Part shown: in pieces, positions 7,942 through 25,600 of the stretch
Layout: every line of letters starts with the position of its first letter
How positions within the stretch are numbered: the first letter of the stretch is position 1
Source of the DNA: an uncultured Spirochaetales bacterium
Lineage (GTDB): Bacteria; Spirochaetota; Spirochaetia; Sphaerochaetales; Sphaerochaetaceae
Length of the DNA: 53,146 nt
Direction: 5' to 3'
Assembly: GCA_949295125.1 (NCBI GenBank)
Contig: CASFJV010000036.1
Location: forward strand, 1-53,146
The notes under the pieces: generated by a model
The model's input: the letters and a program-made list of their open reading frames with translations, nothing else
The model's database searches: none
What the model was told of the DNA's origin: nothing
Program-made: the position numbers and the translations under genes

Positions 7942-8439
7942 ATGCGGTATCTGGTATTTTCTGACATACACTCAGATGAGGAGGCATTCAGGAAACTTCT
8001 TAAAATCATGGTGAAGCTGAAATGTGACTGCATGGTATCTGCAGGAGATTTCTGCCCGACAGTTGAGATGGAGGTGGATGCATACAATCTTGGAGATTTC
8101 AGGACTGTAATGGGGAACTGTGACCGCTACCATGAATATTCCATACTCAGCACTCCGCGCGAATTCATCTCATTCAAGGATGGAGAGAGAACAGTTACAG
8201 TAACTCACGGAGACTGCTATGGTGCAAGCCACTTCAGCCTCAGATCTGGAGACATTTTCATTTCCGGGCATACCCACCGCTCAGCCTTAGAGAGGGATGG
8301 AAACGGAATCATCCTTTTCAACCCGGGATCTGTAAGCCGTCCAAGGGATGGAAGGAAGAGTTTTGGAGTCATTGCACCTGATGGTATTGAGCTCCTATCT
8401 TTTCCTCTTTGCCTCTCTCATGAAAAGCTTATGTTCTAG
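7942..8439 (+). CDS. YfcE/MJ0936-family metallophosphoesterase
   Basis: A 165-residue calcineurin-like phosphoesterase of the YfcE/MJ0936 type, which hydrolyses phosphodiesters with two bound divalent metals. Motifs in order: FSDIHSD (residues 5-11), SAGDFC, MGNCD, THGDCYG and GHTH near 110. In the second motif the usual GDxxD aspartate is not obvious, although the first GD is kept. Length is normal for the family. A GGGAGAAA ribosome site precedes the ATG. Its 3' end overlaps the convergent AOR-like gene by 45 nt. The natural substrate is unknown. Confidence 0.85.
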   Translation: MRYLVFSDIHSDEEAFRKLLKIMVKLKCDCMVSAGDFCPTVEMEVDAYNLGDFRTVMGNCDRYHEYSILSTPREFISFKDGERTVTVTHGDCYGASHFSLRSGDIFISGHTHRSALERDGNGIILFNPGSVSRPRDGRKSFGVIAPDGIELLSFPLCLSHEKLMF

Positions 8440-9918
8440 TTCCCTTTTTTCTTTCCTGTAGCATCCCATGAGCCTTGTAAGGCGGAGAGTGGAGCTATCG
8501 TCATGGGAGGAAGAAGAGTATATGAAATGGTCAGGGAATGGGAAATCGCATTCACCAAGCATATTGATGATCTCCAGCCCTTCCTTCAGCAGATCCCTTG
8601 CCTTTATGCCGAACATCTCTTCTTTCTCAAGCTTCCACTTTAAAAGGCGCGGACTGAGGTAACAGAATTCAGGGATTTTGGAAATGTAAGCGATATAGGA
8701 GCCCAGAACCGGAAGTGATCTGGAAGAAAGTGCGTATGTAAATGCCCGCTCATAAAGCGCAAGCACGGCATTAATCCCTTCCCCTTTTATCCTCTTTTTA
8801 TGGTAAATGCTGAAATAAGGAAGAAAAGTATCCCCAAGGGAGAGGAAGACTGCGGACTCCCCCATTCCGCGCGGATCAAAAATTACAGAGCAATTCCCTA
8901 CCTTATATGACTGATAGTCAGAGCCATCATAGCCTCTGGCATACTCTGCCTTTCCGTCAGCTGAAAGGTCAAGGGAGGCAAGCATTGCCCCTGCCTCTAT
9001 GCTGTCCAGCCCCTTGTCATAAACAGCTTTCTTAATGCTGAGAACTTTTTCAGATGAGAATATTCCCTGAAGGGAGCCGAATGCAATGACATCTATGAGA
9101 TCCGGAGAGGGGCTCCTGTCCTTAAGCACCCTCCTGCAAAGCACAGGACAGTCCAGGCAGGAAGAACTGTATGCTCCGTACTTTTCCTTTAGGTAGCAAC
9201 CATCAAGGAATATGGCCCTGGCATCCCTTCTTTTTGAAAAGTTATCTATGGCAAGAGATCCATTTCTCTCAAGGTATTTCACATATGATGATGAGCTTTC
9301 CCTCTTCAGCTTCACTCCAAGCTCTGCTTCGCTTATCTCTTTCCTGTATTTCTTTCCCTCCTCATCTTCCCTTCTGGGCGGAAGATAGCGCTGGAGGCAT
9401 ATTCCCTTGAAATTGAGAATGGAGAATGCAGATCCGAAAGACCTGCCAATTTCCCTTCCGTTCTCATAAAGCGCCGCTATCCTGATTTTCTCATCCGCAG
9501 CAAGCCCTGAGGCAAGGACAACATCATCACTCTTCAGCGAAACCCTTTTCCTGAATTCATCATACCTGAGTCCGCGTTCTATCTCCTTCAGCTCTATCCT
9601 GTCTCCCCTGAGAGAGAGGTAGCAATACCTTTCTGCCTTTCCTTCAATGACTAAAGCAGTGTAGCCAAAACTGAAAAGCATGAATGAAAGGTACAGTGGG
9701 GCATAACCGTAATCCACCCTGCCCTTGAGAGGGGAATTGAAAGCAAAAAGGGCACTCGATGCGCCTTTTATCCTCAATGCATCACCATTGATGGAAGTGA
9801 AGGCAATCCTGTCCTTCCTTTCATCCATCAGGGCTTTCAGCAGCGCATAGCCATTTTCAGGCCTGTCCTTTTCTGTCCTTATCTCATTTTTCTCAAGATT
9901 TACATACAAAATGCTCAT
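8395..9918 (-). CDS. Degenerate aldehyde:ferredoxin oxidoreductase-like protein
   Basis: A 507-residue protein that follows the aldehyde:ferredoxin oxidoreductase (AOR) plan but is about 100 residues short. It has LYVNLEKNEI at the start, NSPLKGRVDYGYAP and FGYTALVIEGKAE (residues 60-95), a REIGRSFGSAFSILNFKGI stretch matching the GR-G-G-AVMGSK-LKA cofactor loop, C-x2-C-x3-C at 254/257/261, GLDSIEAGAMLA near 305 and a FDPRGMG near 348. The cofactor loop has lost the conserved lysines and glycines, and I cannot place the fourth cluster cysteine. Tungstopterin binding is therefore doubtful. There is no Shine-Dalgarno; a TAGTAT box ends 7 nt before the ATG. No ferredoxin or pterin gene is nearby. 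Confidence 0.65.
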   Translation of the reverse strand: MSILYVNLEKNEIRTEKDRPENGYALLKALMDERKDRIAFTSINGDALRIKGASSALFAFNSPLKGRVDYGYAPLYLSFMLFSFGYTALVIEGKAERYCYLSLRGDRIELKEIERGLRYDEFRKRVSLKSDDVVLASGLAADEKIRIAALYENGREIGRSFGSAFSILNFKGICLQRYLPPRREDEEGKKYRKEISEAELGVKLKRESSSSYVKYLERNGSLAIDNFSKRRDARAIFLDGCYLKEKYGAYSSSCLDCPVLCRRVLKDRSPSPDLIDVIAFGSLQGIFSSEKVLSIKKAVYDKGLDSIEAGAMLASLDLSADGKAEYARGYDGSDYQSYKVGNCSVIFDPRGMGESAVFLSLGDTFLPYFSIYHKKRIKGEGINAVLALYERAFTYALSSRSLPVLGSYIAYISKIPEFCYLSPRLLKWKLEKEEMFGIKARDLLKEGLEIINMLGECDFPFPDHFIYSSSSHDDSSTLRLTRLMGCYRKEKRELEHKLFMREAKRKR

Positions 9919-9991: not shown

Positions 9992-11644
9992 ATGGATCTG
10001 ATAAAAGTAAAAGTCGATGGAAAGAATAAAGATGTGGAGATGCTGAGCCTCTATAAGAGCTTTGTCGGATACGAGAAGAAAAAGTATGAGGAAAATCCGA
10101 CAGTCGGAGTGCTCGTCAATGGAAAGCTTGAGCCTCTTTCAGAGAGAGTTGACGGAAAAGAGGATATTGAAAGTGTCCCCCTTTTCTCCCCTCTGGGAAA
10201 GAGGATATACAGGAAAACCCTGACCACGCTGCTTTCCTATGCATCCTCCCTGATCTATCCCGGGAGGGCTTTGACCATCGGGCACAGCCTTGGAGACGGA
10301 TACTATTTCTACTACCCCGATAACCTTCTTTTTTCAGTGTCGGACCTGACAGACAAAATGAAGGACATAGCAAAAAGGAAAGTGGAGATAGAAAAAGTCT
10401 CACTCAGCCATGATGCAGCCATGAAATATGCAGAAAGGACTAAACAGGAAGAGACAGCCGTCCTCCTGAATTCCCTGAACCTCAACAGCTATGAATTCCT
10501 GAAATGCGGATCATATTACCAGCTCTATACAGAACCCGTCCTTCCAGATTTCTCCATAGTTACGCTCTGGGAACTGAGGGAGTACGGCAATGGCCTGCTG
10601 CTGCGCTATCCGCAGACAAGGAATATAATGCAGATCATGCCGTTTGCTGAGAACAGGCTCCTTTTCTCAGTGTTCAATGAGAGCATGAGGAATGAGGAGG
10701 CGGTAAGCATCAGATCCCTTGGAGAGCTGAACATGAGCATCGCAAATGGCAGCATTGCCCATGATATCCTCCTGATGGAGGCTCAGCAGAGGCGCAAGAT
10801 AATAAAGATTTCAGATATGATCCTTAATAAGAAGAGTGCCCGCCTCATCTTCATTGCAGGTCCGTCTTCCTCAGGAAAGACAACATTTTCCCTCAAGCTC
10901 TCCGATGAGCTCAGAATCCTTGGGAAGAAAGCAATCAAGATAAGCCTGGATGATTACTACAAGCCACGCTCTGAAGTTCCAAGGGATGAGACGGGAGACT
11001 ATGACTATGAGGTGCTTGAGGCACTCAGGACTGATCTTTTCCAGCAGCAGATGAAGGATCTCCTAAGTGGCAAGGGTGTGCACCTTCCCTCCTTCTCATT
11101 CATAAAACAGGAGACCATGTTCAGTGAAAGGGAATACAGGATGGATGAGGATACATATCTTGTCATAGAAGGAATACACGGCCTTAATCCGGACCTTCTT
11201 CCTGATCTTGATCCAGAGCTAAGCTTCAGGATATACATCTCCGCCCTGACTGTGCTCAATCTCGATTCATCCACAAGAATCAGCACAACGGACAACAGGA
11301 TCCTCCGCCGCATAGTGCGCGACAACCGCACCAGGGGAGCTGATGCAGTTGAAACGCTGAACAGGTGGCCCAGCGTTGAGCGGGGGGAGAAATACCATAT
11401 CTTCCCATACCAGAACAATGCGGATGTCATGATAAACAGTGCTTTGGACTATGAAATGGCTGTGCTTGCGCCGAAGGCAATACCGCTTTTAAGGATGGTA
11501 AGGAAGGAAGACGGAATCGCATATCCTTCTGCAAAGAGGCTGCTTTCATTCCTCTCATTCATATCTCCGGTAGATTCATCACTTGTTCCAGGTGATTCCA
11601 TTGTCAGGGAATTCATAGGGTCAAGCGTATACTGGACAACATAA
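9992..11644 (+). CDS. TGS/ThrRS-type domain fused to uridine kinase-like nucleoside kinase
   Basis: A 550-residue fusion. Residues 1-60 resemble a TGS domain, about 65-260 resemble the second additional domain of threonyl/alanyl-tRNA synthetases (GHSLGDGYYFYY), and about 280-490 form a phosphoribulokinase/uridine kinase domain. The P-loop GPSSSGKTT is at 290-298, ISLDDYYKPR follows near 325, and VIEGIHGLN lies near 390. It probably phosphorylates a nucleoside with ATP. This architecture is known in clostridia and spirochaetes; what the synthetase-like half senses is not established. No ribosome site; TAATCT ends 7 nt before the ATG. Its stop lies on the T-tract side of the terminator for the convergent Fe-S operon. 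Confidence 0.85.
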   Translation: MDLIKVKVDGKNKDVEMLSLYKSFVGYEKKKYEENPTVGVLVNGKLEPLSERVDGKEDIESVPLFSPLGKRIYRKTLTTLLSYASSLIYPGRALTIGHSLGDGYYFYYPDNLLFSVSDLTDKMKDIAKRKVEIEKVSLSHDAAMKYAERTKQEETAVLLNSLNLNSYEFLKCGSYYQLYTEPVLPDFSIVTLWELREYGNGLLLRYPQTRNIMQIMPFAENRLLFSVFNESMRNEEAVSIRSLGELNMSIANGSIAHDILLMEAQQRRKIIKISDMILNKKSARLIFIAGPSSSGKTTFSLKLSDELRILGKKAIKISLDDYYKPRSEVPRDETGDYDYEVLEALRTDLFQQQMKDLLSGKGVHLPSFSFIKQETMFSEREYRMDEDTYLVIEGIHGLNPDLLPDLDPELSFRIYISALTVLNLDSSTRISTTDNRILRRIVRDNRTRGADAVETLNRWPSVERGEKYHIFPYQNNADVMINSALDYEMAVLAPKAIPLLRMVRKEDGIAYPSAKRLLSFLSFISPVDSSLVPGDSIVREFIGSSVYWTT

Positions 11645-20318: not shown

Positions 20319-21965
20319 TCATATTGAAACTGATACCCCGCAGGATAGCTGGAAATCAGGATCCCCATCCATATATAAGAACGCGATGTTGATGAATGTC
20401 TCAAAATCCAGGATGGAAACACTGAATGGGTACCGTAAATCTATCTGGGTTATGACATTATGGGAGGCATCCCCTGTCGGGGTCATGTCCTTGATATCGG
20501 GTGAATGTCCATTGCCCTGGCTGGAATGCGGACTGAATAAGCTCACCTTGCCATGAATCATGTAAAGAAGTTCAAAATCAAGGCTGATGGATCCGATCCG
20601 CAGCCACGATGCATTTAAAAGCACAGCAATCGCATCTCCGCCATACGGGAATCCTATATAAGTGAACAAAGGGAATTTGCCATATGGCCTGTTGATCGAA
20701 TAGCGGTTGAATATTATGAAGTCAACCTTTTCCCTCCTATAGAGATAGGGGCTTGTATATGCTCCCTCAAGGCCGATCCTGAATATGTCTTTCCCAAAGG
20801 AAAACGAATACTCAGCCCCTCCGCTCAAGCCAAATGCCGCTGCCTGAGAATCACTTTCTGTCGGAGCAGTTGCCTGGTCAAGAACTCCCTGCGCATAAAT
20901 CCTGAGGCCATTGAGAGGCACATATACAAGCTCAAGATGTGCCAGTGCATTAAGCGTTGCTGAGTTGTTGAGGTTATGGAAGATTGTGGCAGGATTGAAG
21001 TAGCCAGGCTCAGGTGTTGTGAAGCTGTACATCACATTCTCAGAAGCTGAAATGGAAAGGCAGTCAAGAGGACGGAATGTGAACATATGTGCAAACATAA
21101 GCCTCATACTGCCTTTATAATCCTCCTGATTTTTGTTTGAATAGTTGGTCTCAGGAAAATAGATGACATAATCAAAGGAGAAACGCTCTGCCTGGGCTTT
21201 CAGGAAAATGCGGTCCATTTTCTCAACATGGGAATCGAAGATGAAATTGCCTATGCGTGAGCTGCCCCACTGCATCCTGTCCCTCAGGTAGCCAAAATCT
21301 ATATTCTCAAACGAGAAATAGATGGCACTGCGCCTTGGAATGTCAATTTCAAGCATATCAAGAGGAGGAAGGTTGAAAAGGAAGAGAGGGGAATACACAG
21401 CAGATGATACGGGAATCCTTATATCACCATCATCCTCAGGAACTATTGCCCCCACTCCAGGAAAATCCTCTCCGAATATTTCACTTAAGGAGCTGAATGT
21501 ATCCTTGTTTGTAACCCTGCCATAGCCATATGAGAGTTCGCTATATGTATGAAATGGCCCGATCCCTGCAGAAAGCCAGCCTTTCAGGAATGGCTTCCTT
21601 TCATTAAAGCCATATGCCCAGTCTTCATCAAGGACGAAATCATCACTGTTTGTATGTACATACATCTCAGCAGAGAGTTCCACTCCAGCTGAAAGGTAGG
21701 TCTCTTCATCACGCAAATAGGAAGAAATCCTCTCATACAGCGCCTGGCATGTGCCATCAAGGCCTTCTTCCTCAAGATAGGAGAGCATGCGCCCAACCTC
21801 TTTCCCGCTCCATGGGCGGGATGGGGACAGCCCCGCATTCCCGCAAAGGAGAAAGAGGCTCTCCATCTCCTTATATACAGGATGAGAGAGCGGAAATACC
21901 TGATCTGAAGCAAAACATAGAATGCAGGAAAAAAGGATGATAGCGGCTAGAAGAAGCTTCCTCAT
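20319..21965 (-). CDS. Outer-membrane beta-barrel protein (Wzi-like), second of pair
   Basis: A 548-residue exported protein with a signal peptide (MRKLLLAAIILFSCILCFAS). Residues about 25-85 form a small helical domain (SGKEVGRMLSYLEEEGLDG), followed by a long stretch of alternating strands with many aromatic residues that suits an outer-membrane barrel, ending in SCGVSVSI. The WGSSRIGNFIF segment near 225 matches WGPGQTGNFIL in the neighbour, so the two are paralogues. The plan resembles the Wzi capsule-assembly barrel, but I hold that loosely. The start at 21965 overlaps the upstream stop as ATGA. Confidence 0.7.
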   Translation of the reverse strand: MRKLLLAAIILFSCILCFASDQVFPLSHPVYKEMESLFLLCGNAGLSPSRPWSGKEVGRMLSYLEEEGLDGTCQALYERISSYLRDEETYLSAGVELSAEMYVHTNSDDFVLDEDWAYGFNERKPFLKGWLSAGIGPFHTYSELSYGYGRVTNKDTFSSLSEIFGEDFPGVGAIVPEDDGDIRIPVSSAVYSPLFLFNLPPLDMLEIDIPRRSAIYFSFENIDFGYLRDRMQWGSSRIGNFIFDSHVEKMDRIFLKAQAERFSFDYVIYFPETNYSNKNQEDYKGSMRLMFAHMFTFRPLDCLSISASENVMYSFTTPEPGYFNPATIFHNLNNSATLNALAHLELVYVPLNGLRIYAQGVLDQATAPTESDSQAAAFGLSGGAEYSFSFGKDIFRIGLEGAYTSPYLYRREKVDFIIFNRYSINRPYGKFPLFTYIGFPYGGDAIAVLLNASWLRIGSISLDFELLYMIHGKVSLFSPHSSQGNGHSPDIKDMTPTGDASHNVITQIDLRYPFSVSILDFETFINIAFLYMDGDPDFQLSCGVSVSI

Positions 21966-23758
21966 AGGCTCCAGCCTACTGCAAATGACCACTGGACATC
22001 GAATTCAACCTTATACGATTTTATATTTCCTGCATTCAGGATGGAGACAAAATCAAGTGAAGTGCCTACGCTGAATCCATAAGGGAGAATGATGGAGCCA
22101 TCAAATCCTATGTCAAATGTATGGCTTACTGCATTCCTGTCTTTAGCATTTGAATCCTTGTGGTTGCCTGTCTGGTGTTCATCTGTTGGTGTGCTGACAT
22201 TGTGGTAGTCCCGATTTACCTGTGTCCATACAGTCCACTGGTCATGAGTGCCATGTGCCATATAGAAGAACCTTCCTCCTGCCATCCAATTCCCTGGCTT
22301 CCTGTAATTCACTGAGAGCTGAGCTACAATAGCATCCCCTCCATACTTATAGCCAAGGAACTGCTCATCAAAGTACTGAGTTCCCCCGTTTTTAACCATC
22401 TCACGTGTAGGGACCACGAAATTGATTCCCCACTCTCCTTCTTCCTGATTTCTGCCATTTCCATCTTCTACCTGGCTGTTTCCATCCCTGAGATAGAGGT
22501 AAGGATCCGTATATGCCCCTTCCAGATTGAAGCTCAGTATTCCATCACTGAGCGCCATATCATATGTGGCTCCAAGCATGTAGCCCATGCTTGTAGGTTC
22601 TGCTGGATCAGCTCCTTCCTTTCCTGGCACCGGTTCTCCAGGCAGTATCATCTCATCCACTACAATCTGGGTATAGATGTTCAGGCCTTTCATCACAGTC
22701 CAGTCAAACTCAAAAGAAAGGATTGAGTTTGTCAGGCTTCTTGTATAAGAGTTATGGAAAAGATGTGCGGGAGAAATGGCTATGAGGTCAATTCTGTTGT
22801 CTTTTGACATGTACATCACGCCTTCTGTAAGGACAAAGCCTAACTTGTCATCAAGGAATCTCCACTCAAGGCGGTGAGCGATGAATGCACTGATGCCATT
22901 GAGATAAGAGCTCTGGCCATCTTTGCCGTTCGGATGGAGAGAGCTTTTTCCACCCTCGGCTGCATAATAGTAATTCTGCGGGTGTATGAAGCTTAAGACA
23001 AGGAAAGTGTACTTGAAATTGTCATCAAATGCCGTGATCCTTGCACTGTTATGGTATTTGATGTGATCTCCAAGGATGAAGTTTCCAGTCTGCCCTGGTC
23101 CCCAGGAATAGCGCTCCCTTCCAACCTCAAGGCTCCAGTTCTCACCTCCTGCTGCGACAAATGCTCGGTAAGGGAAATTGAAATCGAGATTGTTCATGAT
23201 ATCAATAGGGATATTGCTCTCCCAGATCCTGTCGCCGAATGCAGTTTCTCTATAAGGGGCCTTTGTCTTTGTAGTGCCAATGGAGAAGTCAAAGAAGCCA
23301 TAGAAGTTCCTGCCTATATGCTGCTCCATCACAAAGCTCAGGGCCGGAGGAGAATCTGCCCAGTCTATGATCCAGTTATCCCAGGTCTGGAAAGTCTTCG
23401 AAGTATTTGAGTGCATGTAGATCTCAGGAATTATTGCCAGGTCCACAGTGAATACTGCAGACGCAGCATCTTCCATAAGACGCCCTTCAATCCTGTCATA
23501 CAGGCTTTTCTCAAAACTGCCAAGGCTGGCATAATCAAGCCGCTTAAGCGCCATTTTAAGCTCACTTCCGCTATATGGACCTGTTGTTGACGGAAGGGAT
23601 AGCCCGCTGAGAATGTAAAGATCTTTCAGATCCTGCACAATTTCATCGTCTATAGGGTAAATCTTCTCGAAATTATCGCTGGCACTGTTTTCATCAGCCA
23701 TAAGAGGCAAAGTGACAGCCATTAAAGCCATCAAAATTATAAGTATCTTCTTTCTCAT
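21962..23758 (-). CDS. Outer-membrane beta-barrel protein (Wzi-like), first of pair
   Basis: A 598-residue exported protein. The signal peptide is MRKKILIILMALMAVTLPLMA, cleaved before DENSAS; the start at 23758 is chosen because it begins this peptide. A helical N-domain (residues about 45-105, SGSELKMALKRLDYAS) precedes a strand-rich barrel of about 450 residues. It carries RERYSWGPGQTGNFILGDH near 240, a motif seen in Wzi-type barrels that anchor surface polysaccharide. No ribosome-binding site is visible, although TAAAAT ends 7 nt before the ATG. It is translationally coupled to its paralogue downstream. Substrate or ligand unknown. Confidence 0.7.
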   Translation of the reverse strand: MRKKILIILMALMAVTLPLMADENSASDNFEKIYPIDDEIVQDLKDLYILSGLSLPSTTGPYSGSELKMALKRLDYASLGSFEKSLYDRIEGRLMEDAASAVFTVDLAIIPEIYMHSNTSKTFQTWDNWIIDWADSPPALSFVMEQHIGRNFYGFFDFSIGTTKTKAPYRETAFGDRIWESNIPIDIMNNLDFNFPYRAFVAAGGENWSLEVGRERYSWGPGQTGNFILGDHIKYHNSARITAFDDNFKYTFLVLSFIHPQNYYYAAEGGKSSLHPNGKDGQSSYLNGISAFIAHRLEWRFLDDKLGFVLTEGVMYMSKDNRIDLIAISPAHLFHNSYTRSLTNSILSFEFDWTVMKGLNIYTQIVVDEMILPGEPVPGKEGADPAEPTSMGYMLGATYDMALSDGILSFNLEGAYTDPYLYLRDGNSQVEDGNGRNQEEGEWGINFVVPTREMVKNGGTQYFDEQFLGYKYGGDAIVAQLSVNYRKPGNWMAGGRFFYMAHGTHDQWTVWTQVNRDYHNVSTPTDEHQTGNHKDSNAKDRNAVSHTFDIGFDGSIILPYGFSVGTSLDFVSILNAGNIKSYKVEFDVQWSFAVGWSL

Positions 23759-23796
23759 TGAATATATTTTAAACTGAAAATGGATTTTTTGGGTAG

Positions 23797-23853
23797 AAAA
23801 AGCCTGATCCCATTGATGGACCACTTCCAAATGAGGCGATCCGGGCATCAGGC
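23797..23853 (-). terminator. Hairpin and T-run between ybaK and the barrel-protein genes
   Basis: GCCTGATCCC (23802-23811) pairs with GGGCATCAGGC (23843-23853), one base bulged, with a 31-nt loop. The minus strand runs into TTTTT (23797-23801); the plus strand is also followed by a T-rich tract (23856-23868). It probably ends the lnt-cinA-ybaK transcript, and being only 38 nt before the next ATG it may act as an attenuator. Confidence 0.5.
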
Positions 23854-23876: not shown

Positions 23877-24362
23877 TCAGTTTTGCGCAGGCTCGATTAT
23901 CTTTGCCACGCTTACCCATCCTTTTGCATTGGAAAGGCTGTAAAGCTCCTGGGGGCTTAATGGAATTGCACTGTTTGCTGTCCCTGCAGCCGGATAGACA
24001 GTATCGAACCTTTTCAGTGATTCATCAAGATATACTTCTATGCTGTCATTTAAGGCAAACGGGCATACTCCCCCGACCTTATGCCCTGTTATGCGCTCTG
24101 TGTCTTCATGAGAAAGCATTGAAGGCTTAAACCCGAAGCGCCTCTTGAAATCCCCGTTGCTTATCTTGGTATCACCTGCGGTAACTATGACAATCGCGCT
24201 GTCATCCCCATTCCTGAATGCAAGCGTTTTTGCAATCAGTGCCTCACCGCATCCAAGGGCCTTTGCAGCAAGCTCAACAGTTGCGCTTGATACATCAAAA
24301 AGTATTACCCTCTCATCATAGCCACGCTCTTTAAGATATGCCATTACTTTTTCAAGGCTCAT
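23877..24362 (-). CDS. YbaK/EbsC aminoacyl-tRNA deacylase
   Basis: A 161-residue YbaK/ProX-type editing domain that hydrolyses misacylated tRNA, classically Cys-tRNA(Pro). Markers are FDVSSATVELAAKALG at about residue 22, IAKTLAFRNGDDSAIVIVTAGD with the catalytic lysine region near 45, and GHKVGGVCPFAL with the GGxxPFG-type loop near 95. The start at 24362 (MSLEKVMAYL) is preferred over a GTG 12 nt upstream because it overlaps the cinA stop as ATGA with GGAG just before. Amino-acid specificity cannot be told from sequence. Confidence 0.88.
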   Translation of the reverse strand: MSLEKVMAYLKERGYDERVILFDVSSATVELAAKALGCGEALIAKTLAFRNGDDSAIVIVTAGDTKISNGDFKRRFGFKPSMLSHEDTERITGHKVGGVCPFALNDSIEVYLDESLKRFDTVYPAAGTANSAIPLSPQELYSLSNAKGWVSVAKIIEPAQN

Positions 24363-25600
24363 ATATTGCTCCACTCCCTGCTCATTTTCTCAACATCCAT
24401 TCCGTTAATGTATGCCAGAAGGAAAAGCATTGCAGAAACAGAAGATCTCCTTCTGACAGAATCGCGTCCCCATGTAGTGTAGTTCAGCGTTACCGCTTTT
24501 GCCTCTTTTCCTTTTCCGCTGAAGCCGAAGCACACGTACCCCGGGCCCTTTCCCTCGCTTGGATCCGGACCGGCAACACCGGTAATTGAGCATGCAACAT
24601 CGCTATCCATCAGTTTCCTTACACCTTCCGCCATTTCCCTTGCGCACTCTTTGGATACAACTCCAGACCTCTTTACAGTCTCTCTGGAAACTCCAAGAAC
24701 ATTGACCTTGACATCCGGGCTGTAGGAAGTGACTGAGCCAAGGAAGTACTCACTTGAGCCTGGCATTGATGTCAAGAGTGATGCAAGCACTCCTCCTGAA
24801 CAGCTTTCCGCCACACTTATAGTTAAATGATCCCCTTTCAGCTTATCTGTAAGAAGGCCTAATGCGCTGACATCCCCCTCCACAATCCTGTACGGACCAA
24901 GTTCACCCTGCAGGGACGAAATAGCACGGTTCACTTCATCTTTATCATCAGATTCAGCATAGAGGCTTATCTTATAATCCTGGAACCTGGTACCCCACTC
25001 TATTGCCGGATACTTTTCTGTAAGTTCCTCAAGACGGGCCTCAGCAGTTATGAATGAAGTGTACTCATACCTTGCCTTGTCCTTTATGTCCAGAAGCTCC
25101 TTAACTTTGGGAAGCACTGAGGAATAGAACATTGGCTCCATCTCCCTTGGCGGTCCGGGAAGGGCAAATACGAATGTGCCTCCCTCCTCTCCATAGAAAC
25201 CTGGAGCAGTGCCATTTGGATTTTTCATTACGGTAAAACCTTTTGGAATGAAAGCCTGTTTTTCATTTGCACCCAGAACTCTCTCCTTTCCAACACGCCT
25301 TACCAGCTCCTGATAGCACTCCTCATCCTCTATAAGCTCCGAGTTGAACACATCCGCGATGCTCTGCCTTGTCATATCATCCTGAGTTGGTCCAAGGCCT
25401 CCTGTCACGATGATGATATCATTATCCTTCTTCAGCGCCTTCAGCACAGCTGTGATTGATCCATCGTCCGGGATAGCAACTATCTCAGACATATGGACAC
25501 CTATACCCGTCATCTCCTTTGAAACGAGCCTGCCGTGCTTATCTGCAATGATGCCCCTGGTAAGCTCCGTTCCAATCACTATCAATGCGGCTTTAGTCAT
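24359..25600 (-). CDS. cinA: CinA family nicotinamide-nucleotide amidohydrolase
   Basis: A 413-residue two-domain protein. Residues 1-170 are a MoCF/COG1058 domain (ALIVIGTELTRGIIADKHG, IIVTGGLGPTQDDMTRQ), linked to pyrophosphatase activity on ADP-ribose in the family. Residues about 250-405 are the CinA C-terminal NMN deamidase domain (SVAESCSGGVLASLLTSMPG, GVAGPDPSEGKGPGYV). Together they recycle NAD by-products. The usual G-E-x-L of the first motif is GTELTRG here. The ATG lies inside the last codons of lnt (8-nt overlap) and its stop overlaps the YbaK start. Confidence 0.92.
   Translation of the reverse strand: MTKAALIVIGTELTRGIIADKHGRLVSKEMTGIGVHMSEIVAIPDDGSITAVLKALKKDNDIIIVTGGLGPTQDDMTRQSIADVFNSELIEDEECYQELVRRVGKERVLGANEKQAFIPKGFTVMKNPNGTAPGFYGEEGGTFVFALPGPPREMEPMFYSSVLPKVKELLDIKDKARYEYTSFITAEARLEELTEKYPAIEWGTRFQDYKISLYAESDDKDEVNRAISSLQGELGPYRIVEGDVSALGLLTDKLKGDHLTISVAESCSGGVLASLLTSMPGSSEYFLGSVTSYSPDVKVNVLGVSRETVKRSGVVSKECAREMAEGVRKLMDSDVACSITGVAGPDPSEGKGPGYVCFGFSGKGKEAKAVTLNYTTWGRDSVRRRSSVSAMLFLLAYINGMDVEKMSREWSNI

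Follow-up and report, generated by a model that had tools for sequence, protein, structure and literature searches.

A conserved AOR-fold protein of the Sphaerochaetales with altered cofactor ligands and a derived Arg/Asp motif

The DNA analyzed here, referred to as the window, is a stretch of 53,146 nucleotides from a gut spirochaete and lies in contig 36 of a draft genome of 1.96 Mb. It carries a gene related to aldehyde ferredoxin oxidoreductase (AOR), which we call AORL, between a phosphoesterase gene and a kinase gene. The features of the locus are as follows.

7942-8439, forward strand: YfcE-type metallophosphoesterase (Pfam Metallophos_2, 2e-21), convergent with AORL
8395-9918, reverse strand: AORL coding sequence, 507 aa, ATG start, frame intact
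8710-8712, reverse strand: P403, which aligns with Pf C494, the fourth cysteine of the cluster, now lost
8866-8877, reverse strand: D348-P-R350-G351, retained D-x-R-G motif (Pf D428 and R430), Asp and Arg in 88/88 AORLs
9136-9159, reverse strand: C254-x2-C257-x3-C261, which supplies three cysteines of the four-Cys cluster site and does not vary within the genus
9205-9231, reverse strand: AORL motif R230-x-D232-P-R234-x3-L238, R234 in 88/88 and D232 in 85/88 AORLs
9400-9438, reverse strand: FGSAFSILNFKGI loop, residues 161-173, the altered counterpart of AOR GxGAVMGSKNLKA by alignment
9992-11644, forward strand: PRK/uridine-kinase-like gene (Pfam PRK, 1e-15), divergent, upstream of AORL

The order NifS-NifU-HTH, PRK kinase, AORL, YfcE-type phosphoesterase, alpha-beta hydrolase, and BrkB recurs across the genus, with AORL usually transcribed alone. 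We took the genus as Candidatus Ornithospirochaeta, of the order Sphaerochaetales and the family Sphaerochaetaceae; the sequence relatives include Candidatus Ornithospirochaeta stercoripullorum and uncultured Spirochaetaceae and Spirochaetales. Outside the genus, this neighborhood is found, complete or in part, in the majority of the genera sampled, so that the homologues are most reasonably regarded as orthologues at an inherited locus. The 3' ends of AORL and the phosphoesterase gene overlap by 45 bp in the window (8395-8439) and by 139 to 244 bp in 16/16 measurable genus loci (L072-L088); most orthologues reach 553 to 577 aa because they run this far into the convergent gene. The C-terminal GPSEDLGRDGDPGL, which is repeated in relatives, was considered as a conserved domain and rejected because it is the phosphoesterase gene, where the two genes overlap, translated in antisense; this tail is probably conserved because its antisense frame encodes that enzyme. 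Elsewhere in the window, two adjacent large ORFs (20319-23848, reverse strand; 557 and 628 aa) have no NCBIfam match; the 557-aa ORF has no Pfam match, and the 628-aa ORF has a weak Wzi capsule-assembly match (3e-6) below the cut-off.

The AORL frame matched Pfam AFOR_N (7e-13) and AFOR_C (1e-14), and the 1aor sequence matched it at 3e-13, while an NCBIfam profile scan gave nothing useful (best match 0.021). These matches, together with C254, C257, and C261, agree with the AOR chain order and the C-x2-C-x3-C described in an earlier note on this DNA. Structure prediction had been proposed there as a check, and an AlphaFold2 model built from 18 sequences (pLDDT 84.9, pTM 0.88) covers the whole AOR fold, although its confidence drops near the cysteines, to pLDDT 53-62 in blocks 241-270. 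VIA-align aligned residues 1 to 502 of the model to 1aor with Z 31.3 and an rmsd of 3.3 over 476 residues and gave Z 32.2 to 9mqx, 31.7 to 9g7j, and 22.9 to BamB (4z3w). Seven AOR/WOR/BamB entries scored Z 23 to 32, no other listed entry exceeded Z 4.2, and Foldseek matched the model to 1aor at 4e-20. Judged by these matches, the window AORL is a true AOR homologue that has the fold and the AFOR_N and AFOR_C domains by which AOR/WOR members are recognized, and in the predicted structure, the fold is kept end to end though the cofactor ligands are gone. The alignment with Pyrococcus furiosus AOR (PfAOR) covers 460 residues; those that are missing are scattered among numerous gaps, of which 444-450, with H448, is the most informative. 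The shortness described in the earlier note is partly a matter of where the gene ends.

Cofactor residues were compared in an alignment of PfAOR with 88 AORLs, 48 from the genus and 40 from the order's other genera, and with 34 canonical AORs of the class; the AORLs align with PfAOR at about 20% identity. Ten pterin/active-site positions were scored (R76, R182, T243, E311, E313, D338, D343, Y427, H448, and D489). We take R76, R182, D338, D343, and D489 to be pterin/active-site positions of the AOR structure, with D489 as the pterin Asp. Glu313, His448, Tyr427, and Thr243 are second-shell active-site residues of AOR, E311 is given among the residues of the site, and the Mg2+ between the two pterins is held by Asn93 and Ala183 (PMC12096430). 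In the window AORL, the positions of R76, N93, A183, E311, E313, D338, Y427, D489, and C494 align with S55, Y72, E156, D273, I275, Y300, F347, S398, and P403, respectively; T243 is changed to Ser, and H448 is deleted. Retained are R182, D343, K199, D428, R430, and G190 (G162 in AORL), along with C288, C291, and C295, which correspond to C254, C257, and C261. The pterin-binding and second-shell residue set that marks an AOR/WOR is therefore not present in the window AORL.

The same pattern extends to the other AORLs, which keep a median of 2 of the 10 scored residues (range 0-4), against a median of 10 (range 7-10) in the 34 canonical spirochaete AORs. R76 and E311 are each kept in 0/88, H448 is gapped in 88/88, and the PfAOR 444-450 loop is absent from at least 90% of the 88; with D338 and D489, these residues are gone from essentially all of them. 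As far as the alignment can place them, the known bis-pyranopterin/tungsten ligands are shown to be gone in all AORLs examined. The glycine-rich loop, noted earlier as altered, indeed reads FGSAFSILNFKGI, yet its G162 and K171 (Pf G190 and K199) are still conserved as in real AORs. G341, L342, and in many AORLs D343 of the DxxGLD pterin motif are retained as well, so some ligand, either another pterin or a nucleotide, could still bind. The loss of the cofactor site suggested by the earlier note thus stands, but the loop it named is only part of the evidence. Stronger evidence comes from the replacement or deletion of R76, E311, D338, H448, and D489, from the lack of a Moco pathway, and from the loss of the fourth cysteine.

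Three of the four [4Fe-4S] cysteines that characterize AOR/WOR members (Pf C288, C291, C295, and C494) are kept in the window AORL. The C-x2-C-x3-C triad is present in 48/48 genus AORLs, whereas each of its cysteines is found in only 17 to 21 of the 40 AORLs from other genera, where the whole loop is often deleted. The fourth cysteine is present in 1/48 AORLs of the genus, 14/40 of other genera, and 34/34 canonical AORs. It had been described as unplaceable; it is lost, but its position can be placed at P403. A quick tree, built without the cysteine columns and with several long branches, gave approximate minimum counts of nine changes for the triad state and six for C494, showing in sequence terms that the cysteines were lost repeatedly in genera outside Ca. 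Ornithospirochaeta. Within that genus, the invariant three-cysteine site probably still binds metal, either Zn or a putative Fe-S cluster in which one ligand is not a cysteine, and such a metal would be a structural or sensory extra, dispensable for the common function.

The invariance of these cysteines in the genus (48/48) and the retained parts of the pterin-domain motifs could also be explained by a redox enzyme of the AOR fold, in which another organic or metal cofactor occupies the same pocket and is fed by the three-cysteine cluster. We consider this unlikely because the cysteines have been lost outright in many other genera that carry the same syntenic gene, so a cluster cannot be required for the function that AORLs share. 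In addition, no redox partner gene adjoins AORL at the loci compared.

A search of the genome for moaA and moeA had likewise been proposed, and the MoaA C-terminal domain, MoaC, and MoeA were detected in 0/24 genus genomes searched, which thus show no host pyranopterin synthesis of the kind that accompanies an AOR/WOR. The controls for this search were positive in 11 of 14 named genomes. Order-wide, MoaC was found in 11/139 genomes and MoeA in 2/139, neither of them in the genus, and elsewhere in the class, outside this bacterial family, MoaC was found in 72 of 97 AOR-bearing spirochaete genomes. Genomes bearing AORL are thereby shown to be almost all without detectable Moco synthesis. AORL and MoaC occur together in eight genomes. 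The AORLs read from six of these eight (L130, L133, L147, L152, L163, and L164) are likewise without the H448 loop, and in four of the six, the cysteine triad is entirely absent.

Three further observations concern molybdopterin-related genes. MoaC occurs without detected MoeA in ten genomes of the order (G067, G069, G080, G082, G095, G097, G108, G109, G147, and G153). A PF00384 (Molybdopterin) match is present in only 2/48 genus genomes (G005:C16:15000-16286 and G023:C5:7913-9037). CinA, encoded in the window at 24359-25600 with a MoCF_biosynth domain, was considered as a sign of Moco synthesis and rejected, as it is not such evidence.

If AORL were still a tungsten or molybdenum enzyme, it would have to use a scavenged pyranopterin cofactor in a rearranged site. 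This reading accommodates the intact fold, the retention of G190, K199, G341, L342, and often D343, and the existence of AORs in families f4 and f17 whose sites are largely intact though no Moco genes were found there. It is nevertheless very improbable given that R76, E311, D338, H448, and D489 are lost in essentially all 88 AORLs, that the fourth cysteine is gone in 47/48 genus AORLs, and that no Moco synthesis was found in the genus. Moreover, free Moco is unstable outside proteins, which makes its uptake unlikely.

Relatives were retrieved with a close alignment; the single window protein gave none as a query, and a broad AORL alignment had no stretch conserved enough for searching. Most of the genomes compared are draft metagenome assemblies. 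Each of the 48/48 genus genomes has a single AFOR_C match, and none of these is interrupted by an internal stop. Searching the order with a profile built from the genus proteins gave homologues in 130/139 genomes, covering 19/22 genera. In the nine order genomes without AORL, no diverged copy adjoined the phosphoesterase at the inspected loci, several of which are near contig ends or in draft sequence. AORL is, in this sample, a near-universal, mostly single-copy, vertically inherited gene of the Sphaerochaetales. One genome of the same family (G090, genus g25) has an additional AOR match that is far closer to the canonical type than its AORL (AFOR_C, 2.4e-88), with no MoaC found; this additional AOR may have been gained recently or may be a contaminant.

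Orthologues and their dN/dS had been named as a further check. Besides the orthologues in all 48 genus genomes, pairwise dN/dS between close pairs was 0.05 to 0.13, far from one. Where the neighbors were comparable, the values were 0.05 to 0.09 for AORL, 0.02 to 0.09 for the kinase, 0.09 to 0.24 for the phosphoesterase, and 0.04 to 0.14 for the hydrolase. These ratios show AORL to be under purifying selection. The alternative in the earlier note, a decaying AOR gene that by chance is still open in the window genome, would fit the loss of most active-site residues and the rapid divergence, with genus members only 27-55% identical, but this pseudogene reading was rejected and retains next to no probability in view of the dN/dS values, which resemble those of flanking genes, the conservation across the genus and order, the 48 genus orthologues without internal stops, and the invariance of the derived motif.

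This derived motif, R-x-D-[P/G]-R-x3-L, lies directly after the (R/K)NF-Q stretch of AORs and shortly before the cluster loop. In addition to R234 and D232, L238 is conserved in 87/88 AORLs, and D-x-R is found at the site in 85/88 AORLs versus 1/34 canonical AORs. Similarly, D428 and R430 are each present in 88/88 AORLs and K199 in 87/88, and together with the motif they plausibly form a candidate working site. We propose the RxD[P/G]Rxxx-L motif, deletion of the H448 loop, and the PRK/AORL/phosphoesterase locus as the marks of AORL, and the window gene carries them. The earlier note was silent on the order-wide spread and on the new motif that replaces part of the old site.

The only canonical AOR with the D-x-R motif, L028, belongs to family f4, and two AORs of this family, L202 (G026) and L203 (G167), match the AORL profile strongly (2e-115 and 3e-114). 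Like AORL, they have a YfcE-type phosphoesterase nearby and no MoaC was found in their genomes; unlike AORL, they are longer (624-626 aa), with four cysteines and an intact GAVMGSK loop. L203 has R76 and H448, and G026 has H448F and RTDPR. In both genomes, the AOR is convergent with the phosphoesterase about 4.5 kb away, and the interval holds an argCJBD-type set (by Pfam, for L203) or a similar arrangement of frames (L202). On the simplest reading, a working hypothesis from the two f4 genomes examined, cofactor dependence and the motif would have changed first, the pterin residues next, and the cysteines several times later. Across families f4 and f17, the AOR ligand residues of L202, L203, and L204 (G039) are mostly or fully intact, and MoaC was found in 0/6 genomes sampled, which reflects either gaps in the assemblies or the persistence of AORs in cells that lack the cofactor pathway. 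The retention of AORL by a whole order in which almost no genome has a detectable cofactor pathway provides a natural series from an intact AOR to an apparently cofactor-free protein, in which the change of role of a metalloenzyme fold and the order in which its parts were lost become testable.

We think it likely that AORL is an apparently cofactor-free family of the AOR fold, with a new conserved site and a role in binding, scaffolding, or other chemistry. AORL would then work without tungsten or molybdopterin, most likely as a non-redox binding or scaffold protein or as an enzyme of different chemistry. Its working site would include the charged residues R234, D232, D348, R350, and K171 and perhaps hold an anionic ligand or partner. 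The suggestion of the earlier note that an AOR relative had moved to a new function is supported, while the function itself is our inference from sequence. More tentatively, and with the balance somewhat against it, the AOR fold may have given rise to a cofactor-free core protein of the Sphaerochaetales with a newly built Arg/Asp site and a wholly different job. If true, a fold so far tied to the tungsten/molybdenum pyranopterin was freed from it in an ancestor of the Sphaerochaetales, and the gene would have belonged to the core of the order ever since.

AOR-family proteins are automatically annotated as tungsten enzymes, and a WOR classification of June 2026, in which spirochaetes are unmentioned, reports that the W-pterin and [4Fe-4S] ligands hardly vary and treats them as nearly invariant (PMC13328260). 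We found no description of cofactor-less AORs in the open-access literature on Sphaerochaeta, spirochaetes, pseudoenzymes, and AOR. AOR matches in gut metagenomes need not mean tungsten metabolism and should be read with caution. AORL shares its fold, domain order, C-x2-C-x3-C, and D-x-R-G with AOR/WOR proteins such as the Pyrococcus furiosus AOR (1aor) and the Clostridium autoethanogenum AOR (9g7j). However, it lacks their fourth cluster cysteine, H448 loop, and pterin, Mg, and active-site residues, has no Moco genes in its genus, and carries the derived motif instead. The benzoyl-CoA reductase subunit BamB, which also has the AOR fold, shows that this fold is suited to chemistry other than that of aldehydes; BamB does bind tungstopterin, whereas AORL has the fold without the tungstopterin site.
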